A stretch of DNA of 64,000 nucleotides from an uncultured Bacteroidota bacterium (GTDB lineage Bacteria > Bacteroidota > Bacteroidia > Chitinophagales > Chitinophagaceae): assembly GCA_903837525.1 (NCBI GenBank), contig CAILUU010000038.1, positions 1 to 64,000 of the forward strand, in the 5' to 3' direction. A model generated the notes under the pieces. It made no database searches, had not been told where the DNA came from, and saw nothing but the letters and a program-made list of their open reading frames with translations. The position numbers and the translations under genes were made by a program. Below are positions 3,254-27,402 of this stretch, one piece after another. Position 1 is the first letter of the stretch, and every line of letters begins with the position of its first letter.

Positions 3254-3396
3254 TTTTTAGTTTTTAAATTATGTTTTTATTCTTATGGACTTTTAGATTA
3301 CTCCCTGTTTTTTAAGTGGGTTTCGGACTCCACTTTTTTTTATAAATATATCAAATTATTATTTAAGATATGAACATACTCTCTCTTTTAAACTTG

Positions 3397-4712: not shown

Positions 4713-6062
4713 TTACGAAGTTTTATCGCCCTCGTTATTTGGCTTTTGTTGTTGCCGCTGTTGTTCATTATTTCTATTTTGCGGTGGTCGTTGTGGTCTG
4801 TTTTGTTGGTTTGGGTTTGGCCACTGTTGATTTTGATTACCTCTATTTTGATTACCACCTTGTTGAGTATTGCCCTGTTGACTATTACCTTGTTGTCTGT
4901 TGTTACCCTGTCTATTATTACCTTGTTGGCCTCCTTGCCTTTCATTATCTCTGCGTTTGCGGCTAGTTTTTTCTAAACTCTTTAAGCTAATTTGCCCAAC
5001 CACATCGGCATAAACAGGTTCAATATCTTTAGGTTTGTTGCTAGTTACATCTGCAGGTTCTAAATCTTCTGGCCGTATGCCTTGTTTATTTAATTCTTTT
5101 ATTTTTTTTACACGTTCAATAGTAAGTGGGTATTGTTTATTACTATCTGGCATGGTGTACCACATTAAATTTCTAAAAATATCTTTCTTTACTAAAAAGG
5201 CACGGCTTTTAGCCATTTCAATAACATCGGCATTTTCAGGAAAAAATTGAAGTGCATCCATGTACGTATCTAACTCGTAATTTAAGCAACATTTTAAGCG
5301 GCCACACTGCCCACTTAATTTGGTTTGGTTTATACTTAAATTTTGGTATCGGGCTGCATTTGTATTTACACTTTTAAAATCGGTTAGCCAACTGCTACAA
5401 CAAAGCTCTCTCCCGCAACTACCTATTCCGCCTACTTTTCCTGCCTCTTGCCTTGCACCAATTTGCCTCATTTCTACCTTTACTTTAAACTCCCCAGCGT
5501 ATAATTTTATAAGTTCTCTAAAATCTACCCTATCATCGGCAATGTAAAAAAAAGTGGCTTTACGCCCATCGGCTTGTATTTCTACTTCAGCCATTTTAAG
5601 CTCAAGCTTTAATTGCCTTGCCATGGCCCGGCTACGTATTAAAACTTCAGCTTCTCTAGCTTTTGTTTCTTTAAGTTTAGCTAAATCTGTTGTAGATGCT
5701 CTGCGTAGTATTCTTTTAATATCTACACTTTGCTCATCTATTTTATGTTTTTTTAGTTGTATTCTTACTAATTCGCCAGTTAAATTAACCATACCCACAT
5801 CAAAACCACTTACACCTTCTACGGCAATCATATCGCCTTTTTCGTAATAGTTAGTGCTTGTATTTTTAAAAAAGAATTTTCGGCTACCGTTATTAAAACT
5901 CACTTCTACAATTTTGCAATTGCTTTCAGGATCGGCAAAGGGTAAATTTGCCAGCCAATCATGCACATTCATTCGATTACAACCGCCGCTGGCACAATTA
6001 CCATGGCTTTGACAACCGCTTGGCGCTCCATCTTTACTAGTACCGCAACTTCCGCAACCCAT
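4713..6062 (-). CDS. ricT: RicT/PSP1-domain protein with Cys-rich N-terminus and Gln/Asn-rich tail
   Basis: 449 residues. The N-terminus has five cysteines in the first 28 residues (C3, C6, C17, C23, C28). The central PSP1 C-terminal domain (~40-300) carries the conserved GSCGRELCC and CGRLKCCLNYE cysteine clusters. The last ~80 residues are low-complexity Gln/Asn/Gly/Arg. In Bacillus subtilis the RicT (YaaT) homologue acts with RicA and RicF in an Fe-S-containing complex that affects RNase Y and sporulation phosphorelay; RicA/RicF are not seen here, so its partners in this phylum are open. It is immediately upstream of gldA and downstream of holB in the same direction. The tail is typical of RNA-associated or phase-separating proteins, which is inference. 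Confidence 0.8.
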   Translation of the reverse strand: MGCGSCGTSKDGAPSGCQSHGNCASGGCNRMNVHDWLANLPFADPESNCKIVEVSFNNGSRKFFFKNTSTNYYEKGDMIAVEGVSGFDVGMVNLTGELVRIQLKKHKIDEQSVDIKRILRRASTTDLAKLKETKAREAEVLIRSRAMARQLKLELKMAEVEIQADGRKATFFYIADDRVDFRELIKLYAGEFKVKVEMRQIGARQEAGKVGGIGSCGRELCCSSWLTDFKSVNTNAARYQNLSINQTKLSGQCGRLKCCLNYELDTYMDALQFFPENADVIEMAKSRAFLVKKDIFRNLMWYTMPDSNKQYPLTIERVKKIKELNKQGIRPEDLEPADVTSNKPKDIEPVYADVVGQISLKSLEKTSRKRRDNERQGGQQGNNRQGNNRQQGNSQQGNTQQGGNQNRGNQNQQWPNPNQQNRPQRPPQNRNNEQQRQQQKPNNEGDKTS

Positions 6063-6413
6063 ATTATTTAGGAATTAAAAATTAAAAATTAGGAATTGAT
6101 TGTGTGGAAGATTTTTATGTGCCTAGCTTTTGCACTACTATTTGGTATTTGTGGCGTGGCACTCTTGTACAGTGATAATTTTATTGAGCCGGCAAATGCT
6201 AACTCTTTGCTATTATTTAATGTGCTTGCTGCCTAAAGCGTTGCACATTGGTATGCGGTACAAGAGAAATTATTTTTTTCTTTTCTCAAAAGAAAGAAAT
6301 AACAATACTACGTTCACAACAATGTTCAATATAGTTGTAAAAGTTTCTCCTAAAAATATAGTTTAGAAAAAACAATTAGCTAGAAATCATAAACTCCTCA
6401 ACAATCCTCCACC
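6063..6413. other. Gene-free gap with short AT-rich direct repeats
   Basis: This 351-base gap between ricT and holB contains no convincing gene. Near 6068-6098 it has tandem AATTAAAAATT/TTAGGAATT words, similar to those upstream of radA (11966-12000). The one frame open for 78 codons lacks any coding signature. Confidence 0.5.
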
Positions 6414-7646
6414 TCAATTAACCAAAATTAACGAATTGTTATTAATAATGTGGTATAACTTAATAGAAAGGGCATGAAACAGCATTTTTGCATTGGCGTT
6501 ACGCTCAATATAATAACTGGCTTTGTTTAGCTCATTTATAATAGCCTCTTGCTGGTGCAGTTGGGTTATTTTGTTTAAACGTAGTGCAAAATCGTTTTCG
6601 GCATTGGCTTTTGGCTGTTCATTTGTAGTGCTAATTCGTACGGCCAACTCTAACAAATGTGTAAAATATTGAAGAAATTGTTTTTGCTTTTCTCTACCAA
6701 TTTTTGCGGTTTCATCTATCCATTTTACTTGAGCTTGTGGGTTAAATTTTACCACAGCGTTTAGCCATTCTCTTAGCATAGTTTGCCAATCATCTTCGCT
6801 ATGCTCTATCATTTGTAGGGCTTCTCTATAATTACCCTCGGCAACTGCTGCAATTTGTTGTGCTTTTTGCATAGGTACGCCTGCCCGTAATTCTAAAGCG
6901 CTTTCAATATCTAATTTAATAAGCATGGGTATTTTTACCAATTGTGTTCGGCTACGTATGGTGGGTAAAATTTGGTCTTCATTTTCGGCCACTAAAATAA
7001 ATAAGGTGTTTGCTGGGGGCTCTTCTATTAGCTTTAAAAGCTTATTACCTTCTTTGCCTAAATACTCTGGCATCCATAGTATTAGTATTTTATATTCGCT
7101 TTCAAAACTTTTTAAACTAAGCTTTCGCAAAATATCATTGCACTCGTGTGCTGTAATATTTCCTTGTTTATTTTCGGCATTAATAAATTGTAGCCAATCG
7201 TACACATTGCCATATGGACTTAGCTTTACAAACTCTCTCCACTGGGTAATAAAATCGGTGGCTATGGGTTTATCACCGGTTTTACGTGGAATAACGGGGT
7301 AGCTAAAATGAATATCGGGATGTACAATTTCTAATGCTTTTTTGCATGATGGGCAAGTGCCGCAACTGTCATTGTACGATGTTTGAGGTACGATGTTAGC
7401 TGTTGGTGCAGGTTCTGGCTCTCCAAATAAAGATGGCTCATTTGCTAACTGCACACTGCCAACTGCCAACTTTTTTCCATTTACAACCTCACAAGTTATA
7501 TACTGTGCAAATGCAATTGCTAACTGCAGTGCTCCGCTGCCCTCTTTACCCAGAAACAATAAGGCATGGCTTAAGCGATTGTGCTGTACCATGTGAACTA
7601 ATTGCTCTTTTACGGCTTTTTGGCCTATGATGGATTGAAAGGACAT
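6414..7646 (-). CDS. holB: DNA polymerase III subunit delta' with an in-frame insertion in the zinc module
   Basis: 410 residues. AAA+ clamp-loader fold: the N-terminal SFQSIIGQ box, a degenerate P-loop (GKEGSGAL lacks the GKT lysine and threonine, as in delta' subunits that no longer bind ATP), a zinc module with C52 and then C95, C98, C101, the LLKLIEEPP segment and the TIRSR (SRC-like) motif. In E. coli delta' the four zinc cysteines are at 50, 59, 62 and 65; here ~34 extra residues separate the first Cys from the other three. The insertion is Ala/Pro/Glu-rich and looks derived from a dispersed repeat. Delta' helps load the beta clamp at replication forks. Start ATG at 7646. Confidence 0.9.
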   Translation of the reverse strand: MSFQSIIGQKAVKEQLVHMVQHNRLSHALLFLGKEGSGALQLAIAFAQYITCEVVNGKKLAVGSVQLANEPSLFGEPEPAPTANIVPQTSYNDSCGTCPSCKKALEIVHPDIHFSYPVIPRKTGDKPIATDFITQWREFVKLSPYGNVYDWLQFINAENKQGNITAHECNDILRKLSLKSFESEYKILILWMPEYLGKEGNKLLKLIEEPPANTLFILVAENEDQILPTIRSRTQLVKIPMLIKLDIESALELRAGVPMQKAQQIAAVAEGNYREALQMIEHSEDDWQTMLREWLNAVVKFNPQAQVKWIDETAKIGREKQKQFLQYFTHLLELAVRISTTNEQPKANAENDFALRLNKITQLHQQEAIINELNKASYYIERNANAKMLFHALSIKLYHIINNNSLILVN

Positions 7647-7676
7647 GGTGCAAAGATAAGAGATGGGATTTTTTTC

Positions 7677-7740
7677 ACCGCAAAGACGCTAAGTTGTATT
7701 GAAAATATTTTACTTCTTTGTGCCTTAGCGACTTTGCGGT
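7677..7740. repeat. Dispersed inverted repeat with 17-base arms
   Basis: The arm ACCGCAAAGACGCTAAG (7677-7693) faces CTTAGCGACTTTGCGGT (7724-7740); 16 of 17 positions pair. It lies in the short gap between the glutathione peroxidase stop and the holB start. Words of this kind are common in Bacteroidota intergenic regions. It may also serve as a terminator or mRNA-stabilising hairpin for the gene upstream on the minus strand. Confidence 0.75.
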
Positions 7741-7746
7741 TATAAC

Positions 7747-8340
7747 CTACAATTTCCCTGTAATCTGCTCACTCATTGGAGTAACCTTGCTTGGAAAATA
7801 AGCGATCATATTTCCATTTTCATCTAATAAAAACTTATTAAAATTCCATTTTATTTCGGCGTCTAACACTCCGTTTTCGGTTTTGGTGCAAAGCCATTGG
7901 TAAATAGGAGCAGCATCATCGCCTTTTACACTAATTTTTGCCGCCATGGGGAAAGTAACACCGTAGTTTTGTTGGCAAAACGCTTTTATTTCGGTGTTGG
8001 TGCCTGGCTCTTGTCCGCCAAAATTATTTGCTGGGAAGCCCACAATTACCAATTTATCTTTAAATTTTTGGTATAAGGCTTCCAGCTCTTTGTATTGTGG
8101 TGTGTAACCACATTCGCTGGCGGTATTAACTATTAATATTTTTTTTCCCTTAAAATCTGCAAAGTTTATAGTTGTGCCATCTAAAGCTTCTACCTTAAAA
8201 GTATGTATAGAGGTCATTTCATTAGTTTTTACCATGGCTGAGGTATTAGCGTATGATTTATCGTATCCGTTATCGGTTTTTGTTGTGTTGCCCTGAGTGC
8301 AGGAGAGTAAAGCGGCAGTAATAGCTATTAATTTTAACAT
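7747..8340 (-). CDS. Lipoprotein glutathione peroxidase (Cys type)
   Basis: 197 residues. A lipoprotein signal (LLSC, lipidated Cys 14) is followed by a linker and a thioredoxin-fold peroxidase domain from ~45. The peroxidatic residue is Cys 77 in NTASECGYT, where animal enzymes have selenocysteine; the FPANNFGGQEPG and WNFNKFL motifs carry the other members of the catalytic set (Gln, Trp, Asn). Bacterial Cys-type enzymes usually reduce peroxides with thioredoxin rather than glutathione. The lipobox implies anchoring to the inner or outer membrane. A second, non-lipoprotein paralogue is at 39836-40513. Confidence 0.88.
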   Translation of the reverse strand: MLKLIAITAALLSCTQGNTTKTDNGYDKSYANTSAMVKTNEMTSIHTFKVEALDGTTINFADFKGKKILIVNTASECGYTPQYKELEALYQKFKDKLVIVGFPANNFGGQEPGTNTEIKAFCQQNYGVTFPMAAKISVKGDDAAPIYQWLCTKTENGVLDAEIKWNFNKFLLDENGNMIAYFPSKVTPMSEQITGKL

Positions 8341-8377
8341 ATTTTAGTTTATTTATGTATACAACAAAACTTATTGA

Positions 8378-9784
8378 TTATTGTTTTTCGTAACACCCAA
8401 TATCTGGTAAACCAACACTTCTTGCTTTATCATCTAAATCTTTTGCAAAAGTTGTTGCTACGCCTTTGTTTATGCCTGGCGCTGCAGCATCTTTCGTTAT
8501 TCTAAAGTCAAAAATATTTTTATTTACATCAACAGTATTAAAAGTAGGGTTTATATTTTTAAGGTTATTGGTTAAGGTTGCATTGACTGGGTCGGTAGCA
8601 TTTTTGTACAAATTATTTTCAAATAAAACAGTAAACGGGTTAGCCCCTTGTTTGGCTATTTGTATTTCGTTATCTACAAAACTATTATCGCCCCAAAAAA
8701 TAGTATTACGAAATGTTGCCGATAAATTTGCAGTAACCACACCACCAATGGTGTTAGCAAAATTAGTAATGCCTAGCACCTCGTTTTTGTGTGTAATATA
8801 TTTACTGCTATAAGCTACCACGGTACAGTTAGTAAACGAATAATTACCGCCATAACTAATAAAAACATTGTTGCCACAATTGCTTATTAAACTATTATTT
8901 ATTTGAGCAAAGGTGTTTACCAAAAGCAAACCTTCTTTAAAAGCGTTATCAAGTATGCACTGTTGTAAAATTAATTTAGGGTTTATATTTACACTTGGCT
9001 TTTCGGCTACTACTGCCTGATAGGCGTTTTTAATTACAGCAAATTGTAAAAAATTATTTTTACTAAACTCTCTAAAATAAATACCTGGCCAGCTTGCAGG
9101 CAAATCTTTATAATTTTCATCTAACCTATCTCCTGTAAAAACTACTTCGTTATTTTTTGTGCCATTGGCAATTAACGTACCATCTACTAAAATAGGAGCA
9201 TTGGCATGTAAGTAAATTTTTGTTCCTTGCGGTATAGTTAAGGTTGCATTTTCAGCAATTTTTAATCCATCTAAAATTACATAGGGTTTAGTATTGCTCC
9301 AGGTAGTATTAGTACTAATGGTTTGATTGCGTAAAAAAATAGCATTTTGCCCAAACGCTTGTAACTGCACATACTGAGTATTGCCATTATACTTTATTTG
9401 AATACTATCGCTCACTATAAAAGGTAAATTTGCCCCTGATGGATTTATAGTAGCCGATACAAATACATAAATACTATCGTTAGCAGCAAGCTCAATATTA
9501 CTAGCTTCTGTGGTGGGAACACTATTTACATTTATTTTATAAGCAGATGAAATTCCCCCCATTAGTTTTACAGTATTTAGTAAAAGCTTTTGATTGTTTT
9601 CGTTTATAATTTTAAACGATTTGGTAATTGAGCCAGTGGTCGTAAAAACGGTATCGTATTTTAAGCTATCTGTTGTAATGTTTACGCTTGCTTGGTTGCT
9701 AGTAATAAAACTATCTTTTTTGCAAGAGGTTTGAATGCAACAATAAGTGATAAGCAATAGACAATAAACAACTACTTTTTTCAT
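8378..9784 (-). CDS. Lipoprotein with right-handed parallel beta-helix
   Basis: 468 residues. Signal peptide with lipobox IQTSC at about residues 17-21. An immunoglobulin-like N-terminal portion (~30-150) is followed by a region (~160-430) rich in Asn/Val/Ile with short recurring strands (GLKIAENATLTI, PILVDGTLIANG, FISYGGNYSFTNCTV), typical of beta-helix surface proteins such as polysaccharide-binding or lyase-like proteins. No catalytic residues can be assigned. It ends SVGLPDIGCYE, a C-terminal phrase (xxPDIGAYE) common in such Bacteroidota proteins. Start ATG at 9784. The signal peptide DNA resembles a dispersed repeat. Confidence 0.75.
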   Translation of the reverse strand: MKKVVVYCLLLITYCCIQTSCKKDSFITSNQASVNITTDSLKYDTVFTTTGSITKSFKIINENNQKLLLNTVKLMGGISSAYKINVNSVPTTEASNIELAANDSIYVFVSATINPSGANLPFIVSDSIQIKYNGNTQYVQLQAFGQNAIFLRNQTISTNTTWSNTKPYVILDGLKIAENATLTIPQGTKIYLHANAPILVDGTLIANGTKNNEVVFTGDRLDENYKDLPASWPGIYFREFSKNNFLQFAVIKNAYQAVVAEKPSVNINPKLILQQCILDNAFKEGLLLVNTFAQINNSLISNCGNNVFISYGGNYSFTNCTVVAYSSKYITHKNEVLGITNFANTIGGVVTANLSATFRNTIFWGDNSFVDNEIQIAKQGANPFTVLFENNLYKNATDPVNATLTNNLKNINPTFNTVDVNKNIFDFRITKDAAAPGINKGVATTFAKDLDDKARSVGLPDIGCYEKQ

Positions 9785-20598: not shown

Positions 20599-22005
20599 TT
20601 ATTTATGGGTATTAGTAAGTTTTTTAAGTAAAAAATACAGCCCAATAAACCCAACCATTACAGCTAAACCAATAGTAGCAGCATTAGCTATGCCAAATTT
20701 AGCTAGTATATCGGTTGGTTTATAATCTAACGAAATACTTATGCCTACAAAAACATAGGCGGCAATAAATAGAATAGGCATTAAAGGAAATAACTTCATT
20801 TTATAAATACCTGTATCATCTAAATACTTTGTTTTTTTACGTAAAATAAAAATAGTGGCTGCCGAAAGAACCATTCCAAAACAATCTAAAAAAATGGTAA
20901 AACTTAATATTTTATCAAACTCTTTTGCCCAAAAAACAATAAAAATACAGAGTACTGCAAACGTAGTTAACGAGGTGGTAAGCACATCTGTTTTAGTATT
21001 TCTTTTTCCAAATAGGGGGGGTAAAATTTTATCTTCGCTCATTGCAAACATAACCCTTGGGTTGCTCATTAAAAGTACGTTTACATAAGCTAATACACTT
21101 AAAAATAAAAAGCCTGATAAAATACGTTCGGCATTTATACCAAATACTTTGGAGGCCATTACTGCAGCAATGTTTTTAGTGTCTTTTAGGTTTTCAAACC
21201 CAATTACTTTTATATAGGCATAGTTTATTGTTAAGTATAAAATAATAATGATGGCAATACCTAAAAAAATACCCCTTGGTACATTTTTAGTAGGCTTATC
21301 TACCTCTGCACCAAAATTTATGGTTTGCTGATAACCCCCGTAGGTAAAGCTTACAGCTACTAAGCCAATTCCAAATGCTTTTATATATTCCATAAAAGTT
21401 GGCGAAATAGTTGATGTGTTTATTACCTGACTACTGGCTTGAGCATCTGCAAAAAATAAAGGTGTAATCAATAATAAGATTAAAATAATTTTAATAAGGG
21501 TTAAAACATTTTGAGTTTTTGCACTCATTTTTAAACCCAATAAATTTACTCCGTAAAAAAGGAGAATAGCTACTATTGCAATAGTTATTTGTATAGTTTG
21601 AATGTAACTGGCATTAGCTGCAATTTTTATCCATTCAACATCTTTACTTAATGGAACAAAAATGGCCGTAATATATTCGCCACCAACTAACGCCACCATA
21701 GCTAAGGATGCTGCATTGCTTACTAATATTACACAGTTTATGGCAAAGGCAATACTGGGGTGGTAGGCATACGAAAATACTTTGTAGTAGCCTCCTGTAA
21801 CCGGTAGTCGACTGCCAATTTCGGCATACGTAAGTGCACCACAAAATGCAACTAAGCCACCAGCAATCCATGCAACAAAAAATAAAAAGGTATCTGGTGA
21901 TGCTTTCGCCACATTAGCTGGCGTTCTAAAAATGCCCATACCAATTACAAGGCTTACCACTATCATGGTAAAGTCGAATAAGGTTAGTTTTGATTTTGTA
22001 GCCAT
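20599..22005 (-). CDS. APC family amino-acid permease
   Basis: 468 residues from the ATG at 22005; an in-frame TTG 30 bases upstream is less likely, because homologues begin close to KLTLFDFT. Twelve or so membrane segments are visible. The first helix has the family's GMGIFRTP unwound segment, and LPVTGGYYKVF follows helix 2. These transporters exchange or import amino acids; the substrate is not predictable. It is the last gene of a minus-strand group and divergent from the metal-related operon at 22095. Confidence 0.9.
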   Translation of the reverse strand: MATKSKLTLFDFTMIVVSLVIGMGIFRTPANVAKASPDTFLFFVAWIAGGLVAFCGALTYAEIGSRLPVTGGYYKVFSYAYHPSIAFAINCVILVSNAASLAMVALVGGEYITAIFVPLSKDVEWIKIAANASYIQTIQITIAIVAILLFYGVNLLGLKMSAKTQNVLTLIKIILILLLITPLFFADAQASSQVINTSTISPTFMEYIKAFGIGLVAVSFTYGGYQQTINFGAEVDKPTKNVPRGIFLGIAIIIILYLTINYAYIKVIGFENLKDTKNIAAVMASKVFGINAERILSGFLFLSVLAYVNVLLMSNPRVMFAMSEDKILPPLFGKRNTKTDVLTTSLTTFAVLCIFIVFWAKEFDKILSFTIFLDCFGMVLSAATIFILRKKTKYLDDTGIYKMKLFPLMPILFIAAYVFVGISISLDYKPTDILAKFGIANAATIGLAVMVGFIGLYFLLKKLTNTHK

Positions 22006-22082
22006 ACTGAAAGATAATTTTTTTAACGTATTCAACCCTTTTAAAACTACAAAACTTTAACATTTACAAGATAAATATAATG

Positions 22083-22090
22083 TAACTTTG
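22083..22090 (+). promoter_or_regulatory. Putative -7 box directly upstream of the HYC_CC_PP gene
   Basis: TAACTTTG matches TAnnTTTG and is only 4 bases before the GTG start, implying a near-leaderless transcript or a later start codon. Confidence 0.4.
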
Positions 22091-22094
22091 TATT

Positions 22095-22487
22095 GTGAAA
22101 AAGGCCTTAGTTATATTAATACTTATTACCTATAGTTTTGCAACTATGGGTGCAACAATGCATTTGCATTATTGTATGAATGAGTATGTAGGCGCTAGCT
22201 TGTGGGATGGGGACGATACATCAGAATGTGGAAAGTGCGGAATGAAGGAAAAAAAAGGAGGGTGTTGTAAAGATGAACACAAAGCCTTTAAATTAAAAAC
22301 GGATCACCAAAAAAGTTCGATATCCGATTTTTTATCGACTAATTATGTACAAATAGTAAATACAACAGTAAATACATTCCCGTATCAATTAAATTCTATT
22401 GATCAGTTTACCTATTCAAATTACCATCCCCCCCCTAACATACATAAACAAAGCTTTAATGTTTTGTATTGCACTTTTTTAATTTGA
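22095..22487 (+). CDS. HYC_CC_PP family small Cys/His protein
   Basis: 130 residues starting at GTG. Hydrophobic N-terminus (signal peptide or single helix), then the family landmarks in order: HLHYCMNE (HYC), CGKCGMKEKKGGCCKDEH (Cys cluster ending in CC) and HPPP (a Pro-run before HKQSF). The role is unestablished; the His/Cys pattern suggests metal binding. It leads a run of metal-binding and outer-membrane genes. No methionine precedes the hydrophobic segment, which favours the GTG. Confidence 0.8.
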   Translation: MKKALVILILITYSFATMGATMHLHYCMNEYVGASLWDGDDTSECGKCGMKEKKGGCCKDEHKAFKLKTDHQKSSISDFLSTNYVQIVNTTVNTFPYQLNSIDQFTYSNYHPPPNIHKQSFNVLYCTFLI

Positions 22488-22581
22488 TTTATTCTTTTCT
22501 TTTTTAAGCCTACACTTAAATGTGCTTAGGCTATCATGCATTTACGCAATAAAATTATTTTACACTATAAAATTTAGAAAA

Positions 22582-23466
22582 ATGAAATTATTATTTTCAA
22601 TAGTAGCATTAATGGTACTATCAACAATATCTTTTGCACAAATAAAAAATAGTAAAACCGAAACGTTAAAAGTATATGGCAACTGTGGTATGTGTAAAAC
22701 AAAAATTGAAAAAGCAGGCACACAAAAAAAGCTTAGTAAAACAGTATGGAACGAAGAAACCGCAATGGCAACCATTACTTATGATAGCAAAAAAACAACA
22801 GCAAATGATATTTTAAAAAATATTGCTTTAGTTGGATATGATAGTGATAATTTTTTAGCACCAGATGCAGTTTATGAAAACCTACACGGCTGCTGCCAAT
22901 ATGAAAGAAAAGCAAAACCTGCTGCAACTATAGCCGCTCCAAAAGTTGAACCAAAAGATACACATAGTGGACATAACCACGGTGCAACACCTACTACGCT
23001 TACTGAAACAAAGCCTGTAGAAGCTAAGCAAGATGTAAATCAGGTACAAGCTATTTACGATAATTACTTTGCAGTAAAAGACGCCTTGGTAAAAACAGAT
23101 GCAAAAATTGCTGCGGAAAAAGCTACTGCATTATTAGCTTCATTAAATGGTATTGATATGGCTAAAATGAAAATGGACGACCATATGGCTTTTATGAAAG
23201 CAGAGAAAGCATTACAAGCAGATGCTGCACTAATTAGCACAAACAAAGATGTGGCTGCACAAAGAGATGCATTTAGCAATTTGTCTACTAATATGGTTGC
23301 TTTTATAAAAGTTACCAAAGCTTCAACACCAGTGTATTTGCAACATTGCCCTATGGCAAATGATGGCAAGGGAGCCGATTGGTTAAGTAAAGAAAATGTA
23401 GTTAAAAATCCATACTACGGTAGTATGATGTTGGGTTGTGGTAAAGTAACAGAAACAATTAAATAA
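22582..23466 (+). CDS. Secreted heavy-metal-associated domain protein with C-terminal DUF3347
   Basis: 294 residues from the ATG at 22582, which begins a signal peptide (FSIVALMVLSTISFAQ); an upstream in-frame GTG at 22522 would bury it. An HMA domain (~26-95) has the metal-binding GNCGMCKTKIE (CxxC). A Pro/Lys/His linker (HSGHNHG) leads to a DUF3347 domain (~155-290) with YLQHCPMA and MMLGCGK, the Cu-associated motif of CusB-like C-termini. This combination is typical of Bacteroidota periplasmic copper handling; binding copper is inference. Confidence 0.87.
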   Translation: MKLLFSIVALMVLSTISFAQIKNSKTETLKVYGNCGMCKTKIEKAGTQKKLSKTVWNEETAMATITYDSKKTTANDILKNIALVGYDSDNFLAPDAVYENLHGCCQYERKAKPAATIAAPKVEPKDTHSGHNHGATPTTLTETKPVEAKQDVNQVQAIYDNYFAVKDALVKTDAKIAAEKATALLASLNGIDMAKMKMDDHMAFMKAEKALQADAALISTNKDVAAQRDAFSNLSTNMVAFIKVTKASTPVYLQHCPMANDGKGADWLSKENVVKNPYYGSMMLGCGKVTETIK

Positions 23467-23518
23467 GTACATTAAAATTGTGCAGACTTCTAAAAGCCTT
23501 CACGTATAAAATTTTTAT

Positions 23519-24019
23519 ATGAAAAAAACTAGTTTAGTAATACCGTCTTTTGTATTTGCAATTATAGCCAATGCACAAATAACAAAAGTAGAAATAATGG
23601 CTACAGGCCTTACTTGCTCTATGTGTAGCAATGCAATAAATAAGCAGTTGAAAACAATAGATGAGGTAGAAAACGTAGATATTGATTTGAACAAAAATCT
23701 GTTTATTGTACGTTTAAAAAACAACAATACCCTTTCTCCAAAAATGTTTAAGGACAAAGTAGAAAAAGCAGGTTTTTTTGTTGGATCTATGGTGCTATTT
23801 ATTAATTTTAGAAATCAAACTGTAGAAGACAATAAGCAAATAGATAAGTATATTTTTATTGATACAAAAGCACAAACATTAAATGGTGTTGCCAAAGTAA
23901 GGGTATTAGATAAAGGTTATGTTACCACTAAAGAACACAAAAAATTGGTAAAGTCATTTGCAAAATATACAACGTACAGCAAAGACAATGAAGGTATTTT
24001 TCATTTAAAAACAATATAA
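23519..24019 (+). CDS. Secreted heavy-metal-associated domain protein
   Basis: 166 residues. Signal peptide (ending ANAQ), then an HMA domain with GLTCSMCSNAINK (CxxC) and the GFFVGSMVLF segment. The C-terminal half (~100-166) is not recognised. It lies 52 bases downstream of the HMA-DUF3347 gene and 3 bases before the next gene, so it is in the same operon. A metal chaperone role in the periplasm is likely by family. Confidence 0.83.
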   Translation: MKKTSLVIPSFVFAIIANAQITKVEIMATGLTCSMCSNAINKQLKTIDEVENVDIDLNKNLFIVRLKNNNTLSPKMFKDKVEKAGFFVGSMVLFINFRNQTVEDNKQIDKYIFIDTKAQTLNGVAKVRVLDKGYVTTKEHKKLVKSFAKYTTYSKDNEGIFHLKTI

Positions 24020-24022
24020 CAA

Positions 24023-24832
24023 ATGAAAAAAATAATCAGTATAATTTCTATTTTACTAACTTTTAAAGCCAACGCTCAAGAGCTTTTTGTAATGACAGAA
24101 CCTGCAAGTAATATGCCTACAGGGTCCATAGGCATAAGAGCAATGAATAGCTTTATGTACGAAAAAAATGGCACACTAAACTATCATGTTATGCCCGAGT
24201 TAATGTGGGGCATAAGTGCCAAATGGATGGTGCATGTACAAAGCTTTCATAGCAACCGAAGCACAGGAGGTTTAAAAACAGAAGGCGGTAGTATTTATGC
24301 TAAATATCGGTTTTTTAGTAGCGATGATATACATAAACATTTTAGAATGGCATTTTATGGTAGGTATAGTAAAAATAGAGCAGATTTGCACCAAGAAGAA
24401 ATAGAAACAATGGGACACAACACCGGTTATGAAGGAGGCTTAGTTGCAACTAAGTTGGTAAATAAAGTGGCGGTAAGTTCATCGCTTAGTTATGAAAGAG
24501 CATTGGATAATAAGCCAGATTATAAATTTCCTTCTACACAAAGTAACAATGCTACCAACTACACATTATCTATTGGTAAGTTAATGTATCCTAAAACATA
24601 TACAAGCTTAAATCAAACCAACATAAACTTAATGTGTGAGTTTTTAGGGCAAACATTAAATCAAAACGGGAAGTCAAATTTAGATATAGTGCCATCGTTA
24701 CAATTTATTATACGTAGCCAAGCCCGTATAGATGTTGCCTATCGAAAAGAATTATACAGTTCGATGACGAGGACAGCACCAAACGGATTTATGATAAAAT
24801 TCGAATACACTTTTTTTAATGTAACAAAATAA
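24023..24832 (+). CDS. Putative outer-membrane beta-barrel protein of the metal operon
   Basis: 269 residues with signal peptide (ending ANAQ). The mature part alternates hydrophobic and polar residues with many aromatic girdle residues (for example YAKYRFFSSDD, FRMAFYGRYSK) and ends with an aromatic-rich final strand (MIKFEYTFFNV), as in small outer-membrane barrels. Its position right after two metal-binding genes points to metal traffic, but no specific family is recognised. Confidence 0.7.
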   Translation: MKKIISIISILLTFKANAQELFVMTEPASNMPTGSIGIRAMNSFMYEKNGTLNYHVMPELMWGISAKWMVHVQSFHSNRSTGGLKTEGGSIYAKYRFFSSDDIHKHFRMAFYGRYSKNRADLHQEEIETMGHNTGYEGGLVATKLVNKVAVSSSLSYERALDNKPDYKFPSTQSNNATNYTLSIGKLMYPKTYTSLNQTNINLMCEFLGQTLNQNGKSNLDIVPSLQFIIRSQARIDVAYRKELYSSMTRTAPNGFMIKFEYTFFNVTK

Positions 24833-24907
24833 AAAACCACGTCTAGAGTTTAAAAAGGAAATATTCTTTTATTACGCTAATTTATATTTCAATCTCCCTA
24901 CATTTGC

Positions 24908-25160
24908 AACAGATTTGGTTTTCGATTGTCAAAATCGGAATTAAAAGGGAATCCTGTTAAAATCAGGAGCTATCCCCGTAGCTGTAAAACCCCAACCCCT
25001 CTTCCTTCGGCTTTGCTTAGGAGGGGCTTTTGGTTTCTAACTAATAAACCACTGTTCATTAACTAAAATTGAATGGGAAGGAAGTTAGAAATGGGTTAAG
25101 CCAGAAGACCTGCCAGGCCTATAAACAATCATTCAAAGCTTTCGGGTGAAAGGCATGAAG
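24908..25160 (+). promoter_or_regulatory. Cobalamin riboswitch
   Basis: The segment has the core in order: GGGAATCCTGTTAAAATCAG, then GCTATCCCCGTAGCTGTAA, then near the 3' end AGCCAGAAGACCTGCC, the B12-box region of the Rfam cobalamin family, and a final hairpin with GGGTGAAAGGCA. Between 25005 and 25045 the variable arm is enlarged by a C-rich hairpin (ACCCCTC ... GAGGGGC) that resembles a dispersed repeat. It lies ~90 bases upstream of a BtuB-like TonB receptor and presumably represses it when cobalamin is abundant. Confidence 0.93.
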
Positions 25161-25252
25161 TTTAAAAGCCGTAAGGCATTTACATTTCGCCGTAGTTGAT
25201 TTTCTTCAATTACATTTTTCCAGAAAGCAGTCACAAAAAAATTTTTCAAAAA

Positions 25253-27199
25253 ATGAAAAAGAAAATTTTTATTGCGGCTGCTGTACTTATCAGTAGTTAC
25301 GCACAAGCACAAGACAGTACCAAACTTTTAGATGAAGTGGTTATTACGGCCACAAAATTCCCGTTAAAAACTTCTGCTACGGGTAAAGTATTAAATGTAA
25401 TTACGCAAGAGGAATTACAAAAAGCAGGTGGTAGAGATATTACACAACTGATTACCGAAAAAACTGGAGTGTATATCAATGGCTTTAATAGTAATATTGG
25501 AAAAGATAAAAGTGTGTATGTACGAGGAGCAAACCCAGCCTTTACTTTAATTACTATTGATGGCATACCAGTATATGATGCAAGTGGCATTGGGGGTAAT
25601 TTTGATTTACGCAATATGGCTATTGATAATGTTGAACGAATTGAAATTTTAAAAGGCAGCCAAAGTACATTGTATGGTAGCGATGCTATAGCTGGTGTAA
25701 TAAATATAATTACAAAGAAAGGGGGTACTAAAGCGCTTGGTGTAAATGGCTTAGCAAGCTATGGTAGCAACAATACTTTTAGAGGAAATATGGGTGTAAA
25801 TGGCACAAAAGATAAAATTGATTATTCTGTTAACTATTCTAATACAACAACAAAAGGAATAAACGAAACAATATCTGTAAATGGGGATAGAGATGGGTAT
25901 AATCAAAATAGTATACAAGCTAATATAGGGTTTAAACCTACTAATAAAGTGTATTTACAACCATTTTTTAGATACACACAAGTAAACGGAGATATTGACC
26001 AAGGCGCTTTTACAGATGAACAAGACTATACCTACAAACAAAAAAGTACACAATTAGGTATTAAATCAGCTGTTGACTTAAATAAAGGAAAACTAAATAT
26101 TTTATATAGTCACAATATTATTGATAGAGTATTTATTGATGATAGTATTAAAAGCAGAAATGGTTTTGATGCCTACAGTAAAGGAGCTTATAAAGGTAAG
26201 GAGCATTATATTGAAGCCTTTGCAGGGATTGATCTTAACAAGACCGTTAAACTAACAGTGGGTGGAGATTTTAGAGCATCTAATAGCGATCAATTGTATA
26301 ACTCAATAGGTTTTTTTGGTCCATTTAAAACAGCATTAGGGAAAGACAGTTTAAAACAAAACCAAGTAGGTTTATACGTTGCTGCAACTATTGCTACACA
26401 AAAAGGGTTTAATATAGAGTTTGGTAATCGTTTAAATATTCACTCGGAGTACGGAAGTAATTATGTATTTAATATTAATCCCTCTTACTTAATAAATAAT
26501 AAAGTAAAATTATTTACAAACTTATCAAGTGGTTACAGAGTGCCCTCTTTATATCAATTATACAGCGAGTATGGTAATAAACAATTAAAGCCAGAGGCTT
26601 CCTTAAATACTGAACTTGGTGTACAATACTTTAGTAAGAATAATCAATTTAATGCAAGAGTGGTTTATTATAATAGAACGATTAAAGATGTAATGTTCTT
26701 CTATTTTAATTCAACAACATTTCAAGCTCAATATATAAATCAAGATAAACAAAAAGATAATGGTTTGGAATTAGAAGCAGCGTACACAGGAGTAAAAAAT
26801 TTATCGTTAAAAGGCTTTTTTAATTTTGTAGATGGAAATATCAGTACTAAAACAGGCGCAGGAAAAGATACAACATTCTTTAATTTGCTACGCAGGCCAA
26901 AAACTAGCTTTGGTTTAAACATTGGCTATCAGGTTACCAAACAACTCTATGTTAGCACTAATATTGCTGCATTTGGCAAAAGAGAAGATGCTTATTTTGA
27001 TAACACAACATTTACTACAAAATATGTTACACTACAAAACTATGCGTTACTTAATTTATATACCCAATTCTCTTTTAATAAAAACAAGGTCACTGTCTTT
27101 GTTGATGTAAGAAATATTTTAGATAGCGGTTATATAGAAGTAAGTGGCTACAATGCTTTAGGTACGACCTTCTTTGGTGGGGTTCGCTTTAATTTTTAA
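25253..27199 (+). CDS. btuB: TonB-dependent outer-membrane receptor, BtuB-like (cobalamin uptake)
   Basis: 648 residues from the ATG at 25253, which starts a signal peptide (IFIAAAVLISSYAQAQ); an in-frame TTG at 25196 lies in the riboswitch tail. A TonB-box-like segment (DEVVITATKFP) is followed by the plug domain (~40-150, with VERIEILKGSQSTLYGSDAIAG) and a 22-strand-type barrel ending in an aromatic (GVRFNF). The length is that of BtuB. The upstream cobalamin riboswitch is the main evidence for vitamin B12 as substrate; the barrel alone would not decide it. Confidence 0.88.
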   Translation: MKKKIFIAAAVLISSYAQAQDSTKLLDEVVITATKFPLKTSATGKVLNVITQEELQKAGGRDITQLITEKTGVYINGFNSNIGKDKSVYVRGANPAFTLITIDGIPVYDASGIGGNFDLRNMAIDNVERIEILKGSQSTLYGSDAIAGVINIITKKGGTKALGVNGLASYGSNNTFRGNMGVNGTKDKIDYSVNYSNTTTKGINETISVNGDRDGYNQNSIQANIGFKPTNKVYLQPFFRYTQVNGDIDQGAFTDEQDYTYKQKSTQLGIKSAVDLNKGKLNILYSHNIIDRVFIDDSIKSRNGFDAYSKGAYKGKEHYIEAFAGIDLNKTVKLTVGGDFRASNSDQLYNSIGFFGPFKTALGKDSLKQNQVGLYVAATIATQKGFNIEFGNRLNIHSEYGSNYVFNINPSYLINNKVKLFTNLSSGYRVPSLYQLYSEYGNKQLKPEASLNTELGVQYFSKNNQFNARVVYYNRTIKDVMFFYFNSTTFQAQYINQDKQKDNGLELEAAYTGVKNLSLKGFFNFVDGNISTKTGAGKDTTFFNLLRRPKTSFGLNIGYQVTKQLYVSTNIAAFGKREDAYFDNTTFTTKYVTLQNYALLNLYTQFSFNKNKVTVFVDVRNILDSGYIEVSGYNALGTTFFGGVRFNF

Positions 27200-27201
27200 C
27201 T

Positions 27202-27402
27202 ATGAGTTTACACGAAATAAAATATTGCCCATCTTGTAATCAAAAATTTGAGTGTAAAGTGGGTAGTATTTATTTATGCCAATGCAGCACTATTAAGCTA
27301 TCTGAGAAAGAAAAAAATTATGTCGAAAATAAATATTCGGACTGCCTTTGCATAAATTGTTTGCAAAAAATTAAAGTACAATTAAGTAAGGGTAAAAATT
27401 AA
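27202..27402 (+). CDS. Cysteine-rich CWC-family small protein
   Basis: 66 residues with eight cysteines arranged CPSC ... C ... CQC ... CLC-x2-C, the pattern of the cysteine-rich CWC family (probable zinc or Fe-S site). It starts 2 bases after the TonB receptor stop, so it is co-transcribed under the riboswitch. Genes of this family are often found next to B12 or other TonB receptors; the biochemical role is unknown. Confidence 0.75.
   Translation: MSLHEIKYCPSCNQKFECKVGSIYLCQCSTIKLSEKEKNYVENKYSDCLCINCLQKIKVQLSKGKN

Follow-up and report, generated by a model that had tools for sequence, protein, structure and literature searches.

A four-gene set in an uncultured member of the Chitinophagaceae (Bacteroidota; contig CAILUU010000038.1) is read here, with moderate confidence, as a module for copper handling in the cell envelope, which would shield the periplasm from Cu(I) and use an outer-membrane barrel as the copper exit. 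The window under analysis is the whole stretch of 64,000 nucleotides from the start of this contig, and the module lies at positions 22095-24832 as four open reading frames (ORFs) arranged head to tail on the + strand. It is probably an accessory, little-studied copper-tolerance set that is not part of the B12 gene next door. The four features are the following:

22095-22487, + strand: HYC_CC_PP family protein of 130 amino acids with a GTG start, a signal-like N-terminus, and HYC and CGKCG...GGCC motifs
22582-23466, + strand: HMA-DUF3347 protein (HMA1) of about 294 amino acids with a signal peptide, a GNCGMC HMA-like domain, a GCC motif, a His-containing linker, DUF3347, and then CPM...MxxCG
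23519-24019, + strand: HMA2, with a signal peptide, an Atx1/CopZ-like HMA domain containing GLTCSMCS, and a C-terminal alpha/beta extension
24023-24832, + strand: predicted outer-membrane beta-barrel of 12 strands with a conserved N-terminal QELFVxTEPASNM segment

As listed, the HMA-DUF3347 ORF spans 22522-23466 and opens at a GTG at 22522. The true start of the gene is probably the ATG at 22582, because a clean signal peptide begins directly after that codon, and with this start the coordinates leave intergenic gaps of 94, 52, and 3 bases. All four proteins have signal-like N-termini, as judged by reading of the sequence alone. An earlier note on this DNA had described the same row of four genes, three of them with Cys/His motifs and signal-like N-termini. 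The row is borne out by the ORFs, the family matches, and the barrel model, and the motifs and N-termini are as described. The note had also remarked on the absence of an inner-membrane pump, which is true among the four genes; a copper-type P-ATPase is encoded elsewhere in the genome and pumps stand beside the module in many relatives. Across positions 21950-25260, a promoter scan gave 18 matches against a shuffle mean of 14.9 and a terminator scan gave 2 against 2.1, with no excess in either case. The Bacteroidota -33/-7 promoter pattern matched 11 times in the window (8.15 expected) and 0 times within 21950-25260.

The first three proteins belong to families with conserved Cys and Met residues or Cys-rich motifs. 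The protein encoded at 22095-22487 matches NCBIfam HYC_CC_PP (NF047658) at 47.0 bits, above the curated cut-off of 28, and the HMA-DUF3347 protein matches Pfam DUF3347 (PF11827) at 79.1 bits (gathering cut-off 25.5). The match of the latter to Pfam HMA (PF00403) reaches 16.9 bits (E 0.0086), under the cut-off of 24.8, so this domain is referred to as HMA-like; the counterparts in two relatives, at loci L037 and L044, exceed the cut-off with 29.2 and 27.6 bits. In an alignment of the window protein with 20 relatives, the GNCxMC motif is invariant in 21 of 21 rows, and the invariant residues are C35, M37, C38, C104, C105, C256, M258, M283, and C286. HMA2 scores 34.6 bits on the same HMA model, above the cut-off, and C33 and C36 of its GLTCSMCS motif are invariant across 39 rows. 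The structure model of HMA2 prepared from this 39-row alignment has a predicted local distance difference test (pLDDT) score of 88.7, and its first half resembles Atx1, Ccc2a, CopZ, and MerP, of which Atx1 is the best Foldseek match.

The barrel, by comparison of sequence families, lacks a name. No Pfam or NCBIfam family was matched by the window protein at E up to 0.1, and a Pfam scan of 40 members of the family, taken singly, returned scattered weak matches, the best of which was BCSC_C (E 0.0066, one member). None of these 40 proteins matched Pfam CopB (PF05275, cut-off 27 bits) with the E limit set at 1, and a search of PDB sequences with the family gave one match, to an unrelated polyprotein (E 0.16). 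In sequence, the barrel has no match to the CopB/PcoB family. The structure model, built from 40 rows, has a pLDDT of 87.5 and contains 12 strands. Its top structural matches are FapF (Z 22.1, root mean square deviation (rmsd) 2.9, 220 residues aligned) and COG4313 (Z 20.0, rmsd 2.8, 215 aligned), 12-strand channels with which it shares 7-10% identity in the structural rows; a common fold of this kind says nothing on function. PcoB (PDB ID: 7pge) is found at rank 43 among many barrels (Z 12.6, rmsd 3.8, 181 aligned), a low rank that excludes nothing.

HMA2 followed by the barrel is the core of a conserved module. ORFs were called in 101 stretches (positions 12-36 kb of the window, L028-L047, and L051-L130), and L047, which has no barrel ORF, was dropped. 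The remaining 100 loci comprise 80 from named genomes and 20 of congener type, the window included. The named-genome loci are the best 80 of at least 551 barrel relatives found by a pattern scan and are mostly from Chitinophagaceae and Flavobacterium. These loci are not independent: many come from close Flavobacterium species, and L028 and L076 are the same contig. In 91 of the 100 loci (74/80 named-genome and 17/20 congener-type), HMA2 is the same-strand gene directly upstream of the barrel, and in 61 of the 74 named-genome cases measured the gap is -4 to +2 bp, which means that the frames usually touch. A phylum-wide profile search of 392 genomes, in most of which six candidates were scored, detected the barrel in 24, and HMA2 is present in 18 of 20 barrel loci drawn from these positive genomes; several of these 20 loci repeat named-genome loci. 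The earlier note had proposed a check of gene order in other Bacteroidota, and by these counts the order is conserved.

The other members of the row are more variable in kind. Of the 20 congener-type loci, window included, 16 have a HYC_CC_PP match close to the barrel and on its strand, and either HYC_CC_PP or another Cys-rich protein, here called Cc3, is found nearby on the same strand in 59/80 named-genome and 17/20 congener-type loci. Homology between the Flavobacterium Cc3 and HYC_CC_PP was rejected: the hhalign alignment covered no more than 23 columns, which fall in the signal peptide, so the two are probably unrelated proteins that occupy the same position. The order HMA-DUF3347 gene, HMA2, barrel, and then an oxidase-cluster gene is seen in L052 and L053. 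In L044, a protein with an HMA domain followed by five HMBD repeats (4885-5877) takes the place of HMA-DUF3347. In Sediminibacterium-type genomes, an exported Cys-rich protein of about 112 amino acids with an ATCGTCMF motif is encoded beside the HMA2-barrel pair (L058, 7519-7857, and similar loci).

The metal is most likely copper, because the neighborhoods of the relatives hold CopA pumps, PcoA-like oxidases, CusA and CusB, and HMBD domains. A pump of CopA or CusA type or a multicopper oxidase is encoded nearby on the same strand in 52 of the 80 named-genome loci. In contrast, among 20 control regions of 16.8 kb, picked by coordinate from five Flavobacterium genomes, none contains a pump, an oxidase, HMA2, or the barrel, and one contains an HMA1-like protein; the barrel loci of these same five genomes have a pump or oxidase in all five. 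The individual same-strand partners in the named-genome loci are a CopA-type ATPase (32/80), a multicopper oxidase (30/80), and the N part (18/80) and C part (20/80) of CusA. Some Flavobacterium islands also have CusB (16/80) and CusC (15/80). Among ORFs of at least 500 amino acids labeled CopA, 30 of 33 hold both CPC and DKTGT. With the Cu P-ATPase model (cut-off 397), one representative island ATPase reaches 594 bits. One representative oxidase is nearest to copper_res_A (370 bits, under the cut-off of 479), two CusA ORFs of one locus obtain 472 and 612 bits with the CusA/CzcA model (whole-protein cut-off 701), and HMBD metal-binding domains are found on the scanned ATPase, oxidase, and CusB. 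Two other labels did not survive scanning. The RND (resistance-nodulation-division) trio of L030 matches a multidrug permease model (581 bits) better than CusA/CzcA (365 bits) and is not counted as copper-specific, and a 330-amino-acid protein of L044 labeled CusB is an HMBD-repeat protein according to Pfam.

The module thus occurs in two settings. In many Flavobacterium loci it lies within copper islands that contain CopA and an oxidase, or CusCBA, and often a TlpA-like thioredoxin; elsewhere it is a stand-alone set, as in the window. The copper reading would extend to the stand-alone set because this set is homologous to those of the islands. Two features of the island partners are recorded separately. 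In L110 (10664-13893) and similar Flavobacterium loci, CusA is present as two consecutive ORFs of about 426 and 646 amino acids, one matching the N part and the other the C part of the CusA/CzcA model. Both ORFs are of full size in 15/80 loci and long unsplit ORFs occur in L055, L079, and L124; since the split recurs across species, it may represent a real two-chain CusA. The PcoA-like oxidases of L098 (12804-15395) and similar loci, roughly 740-900 amino acids in length, have a long C-terminal part whose last residues resemble barrel strands and which is perhaps a fused outer-membrane part.

The genome of the window is a 2.17-Mb draft with a single P-type ATPase match, which lies on another contig than the module and reaches 489 bits with the Cu P-ATPase model (cut-off 397). 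This gene is broken by a contig end (the ends of contigs C11 and C25), with an HMA N-terminus and the same overlapping short stretch on the second contig. Of two full RND permeases, the one scanned is nearest to a multidrug model. No match in this genome was obtained for Cu-oxidase_3 or for the Pfam CopB model, which does match the Caulobacter vibrioides positive control, and the copper-type AraC regulator of the islands gave no full-length match there, its helix-turn-helix part alone being matched within a longer frame (332 amino acids).

Together, these features suggest a route for copper. The exported HYC_CC_PP and HMA-DUF3347 proteins would bind copper through their Cys, Met, and His sites, and HMA2, as an exported Atx1-like chaperone, would collect periplasmic Cu(I) and hand it to the barrel that is encoded directly after it. 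Copper would then leave the periplasm through the barrel, with the net effect that free Cu(I) in this compartment is lowered. In the genome of the window, the stand-alone module may complement the CopA-type pump encoded on the other contig. A more specific version, proposed only tentatively and judged less probable than its opposite, is that HMA2 and the barrel form a chaperone-fed exit gate, in which the Atx1-like protein docks on the 12-strand channel and unloads Cu(I) with no tripartite pump. If so, it would add a new type to the outer-membrane metal exporters, one that has spread through Bacteroidota partly by horizontal transfer.

Several observations weigh against copper tolerance. No copper pump or oxidase lies beside the module in the window itself. 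In the phylum sample such a gene is present in only 6 of 20 loci, of which five are the Flavobacterium loci of the control genomes, and in the congener-type loci the automatic count of 3/20 with copper genes is reduced on inspection to the oxidase in L029, a locus that also carries a MerC protein. The best structural matches of the barrel are FapF and COG4313 and not PcoB. The structure of HMA2 also matches MerP and ZntA domains, and HMA domains bind Hg, Zn, or Cd as well. TonB receptors lie within eight genes of the barrel, on either strand, in at least 11 of the 100 loci (8 on the same strand), a count from an iterated profile that was used in place of the 4/100 of a narrower three-query search and is still a lower bound. 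In L044, a TonB-dependent receptor (5935-8622) that carries an HMA domain at its N-terminus is encoded between the HMA1 and HMA2 genes, an arrangement that suits uptake.

The receptors would fit a scheme of copper acquisition. Copper would enter through the barrel and be bound by HMA2 and HMA-DUF3347, which together with a TlpA-like thioredoxin would supply it to cuproenzymes of the periplasm, for example cytochrome oxidase. Consistent with this scheme, a TlpA/AhpC-like gene is present on the same strand in 41/80 named-genome and 5/20 congener-type loci, the genome of the window lacks the Cu-oxidase_3 match, and efflux genes are mostly missing around the stand-alone copies; for PcoB itself, one paper argues for a role in uptake (PMC9210255). 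Acquisition is nonetheless judged rather unlikely, and tolerance is preferred to it, because 52/80 loci have detoxification genes as partners while TonB receptors are near the barrel in just the 11/100 given above. The earlier note had proposed periplasmic capture and delivery of copper or another soft metal. The periplasmic handling of a soft metal is retained, with copper pointed to by the CopA, PcoA-like oxidase, CusA/CusB, and HMBD partners of the relatives, whereas capture and delivery, in the sense of uptake, is disfavored. The module might instead serve a different soft metal, or a range of them (Ag, Hg, Au, or Zn/Cd) in which copper is only one. The likeness of the HMA fold to MerP and ZntA domains and the MerC protein of the one congener locus speak for this, and Ag(I) is also a substrate of Cus and of systems of the CopA type. 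However, curated models or known associations mark the oxidase, P-ATPase, and HMBD partners that were scanned as copper-type, and such a wider or different specificity appears improbable.

The B12 receptor is a bystander to the module. The earlier note had mentioned this adjacent BtuB-like gene, but the adjacency has no bearing on the module: a cobalamin riboswitch (85.5 bits, 24899-25131) lies between the barrel and the receptor, which thus has its own control element, and this window is the only one of the 100 loci in which the gene directly after the barrel encodes a TonB receptor. Delivery of cobalt or another metal linked to B12 together with the adjacent BtuB receptor, for which the adjacency in this window alone speaks, is accordingly very improbable. 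Directly after the receptor, a small Cys_rich_CWC protein is encoded at 27202-27402 (45 bits).

In the copper-tolerance reading, the module would act much as the outer arm of the Pco or Cus system does. Like Pco/Cop, it combines putative periplasmic copper binders with a predicted 12-strand outer-membrane barrel, the strand number that is given for PcoB in PMC9210255. A multicopper oxidase is its neighbor in 30/80 loci, one of which was scanned as PcoA-like. It differs in a barrel for which neither the 40 members nor the whole genome gave a CopB match and for which PcoB ranks 43 (Z 12.6, against 22.1 for FapF). The binders are HMA, DUF3347, and HYC proteins, which we take not to be of the PcoC or PcoE types. 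Similar to Cus, chaperone-like genes stand beside CusA, CusB, and CusC in some Flavobacterium islands; however, the chaperone of the module has an HMA fold, which CusF is not known to have, and is paired with a separate barrel, no CusA lies near the four genes of the window, and the RND pump scanned in its genome is nearest to a multidrug model. MerP is likewise an exported HMA protein that HMA2 matches in fold, but HMA2 (24.8 bits) and HMA-DUF3347 (27.3 bits) both fall far under the MerP equivalog cut-off of 92.55, and HMA2 is paired with a barrel and not with MerT. FapF and COG4313 provide the closest structural likeness of the barrel, at the low identity noted above.

The kinds of part are already known, and the paired HMA2-barrel unit appears to be undescribed. 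Searches of the open-licence literature for these families and for Bacteroidota or copper operons, judged by titles and the openings of abstracts, brought up no description of the module, which may be described elsewhere. A table for Bizionia argentinensis in PMC11213822 includes proteins with HMA domains, RND components, an oxidase, and P-ATPases, and places some of them in neighboring transcription units. The copper route across the outer membrane is unsettled: uptake through PcoB (PMC9210255) stands against PcoB-mediated copper efflux, with Caulobacter reported to rely mainly on PcoB for copper homeostasis (PMC12509749). The module adds a barrel family, unnamed in Pfam and NCBIfam, that is linked gene for gene to a copper-chaperone-like protein in several Bacteroidota families. 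It offers a clean two-gene target for asking if a channel in the outer membrane can receive its cargo from a chaperone in the periplasm, as well as hints to the function of HYC_CC_PP, DUF3347, and the unnamed barrel family.

Of 59 genomes searched, 19 have the barrel, that of the window among them, and all 19 belong to the same genus (19/36, compared to 0/23 outside it). In a tree of 99 barrel rows, the window copy forms a group with L052 and L053 (support 100/95), and an 83-row clade (99/85) contains this group and all 80 named-genome copies. The window is apart from 13 grouped congener copies (89/53, not a starred branch) and from three more (100/99). Four changes of the genus label are needed on the tree, and one congener genome, G024, holds both barrel types (L029 and L032), a pattern that suggests horizontal transfer or else an ancient duplication followed by losses. 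One barrel locus (L074) comes from a metagenome-assembled genome named Bdellovibrio sp.; because the tree places it among Bacteroidota rows, it would reflect either transfer or wrong binning. Finally, elsewhere in the window, a DUF805 cis-regulatory RNA is found at 3270-3338 on the - strand (55.6 bits).

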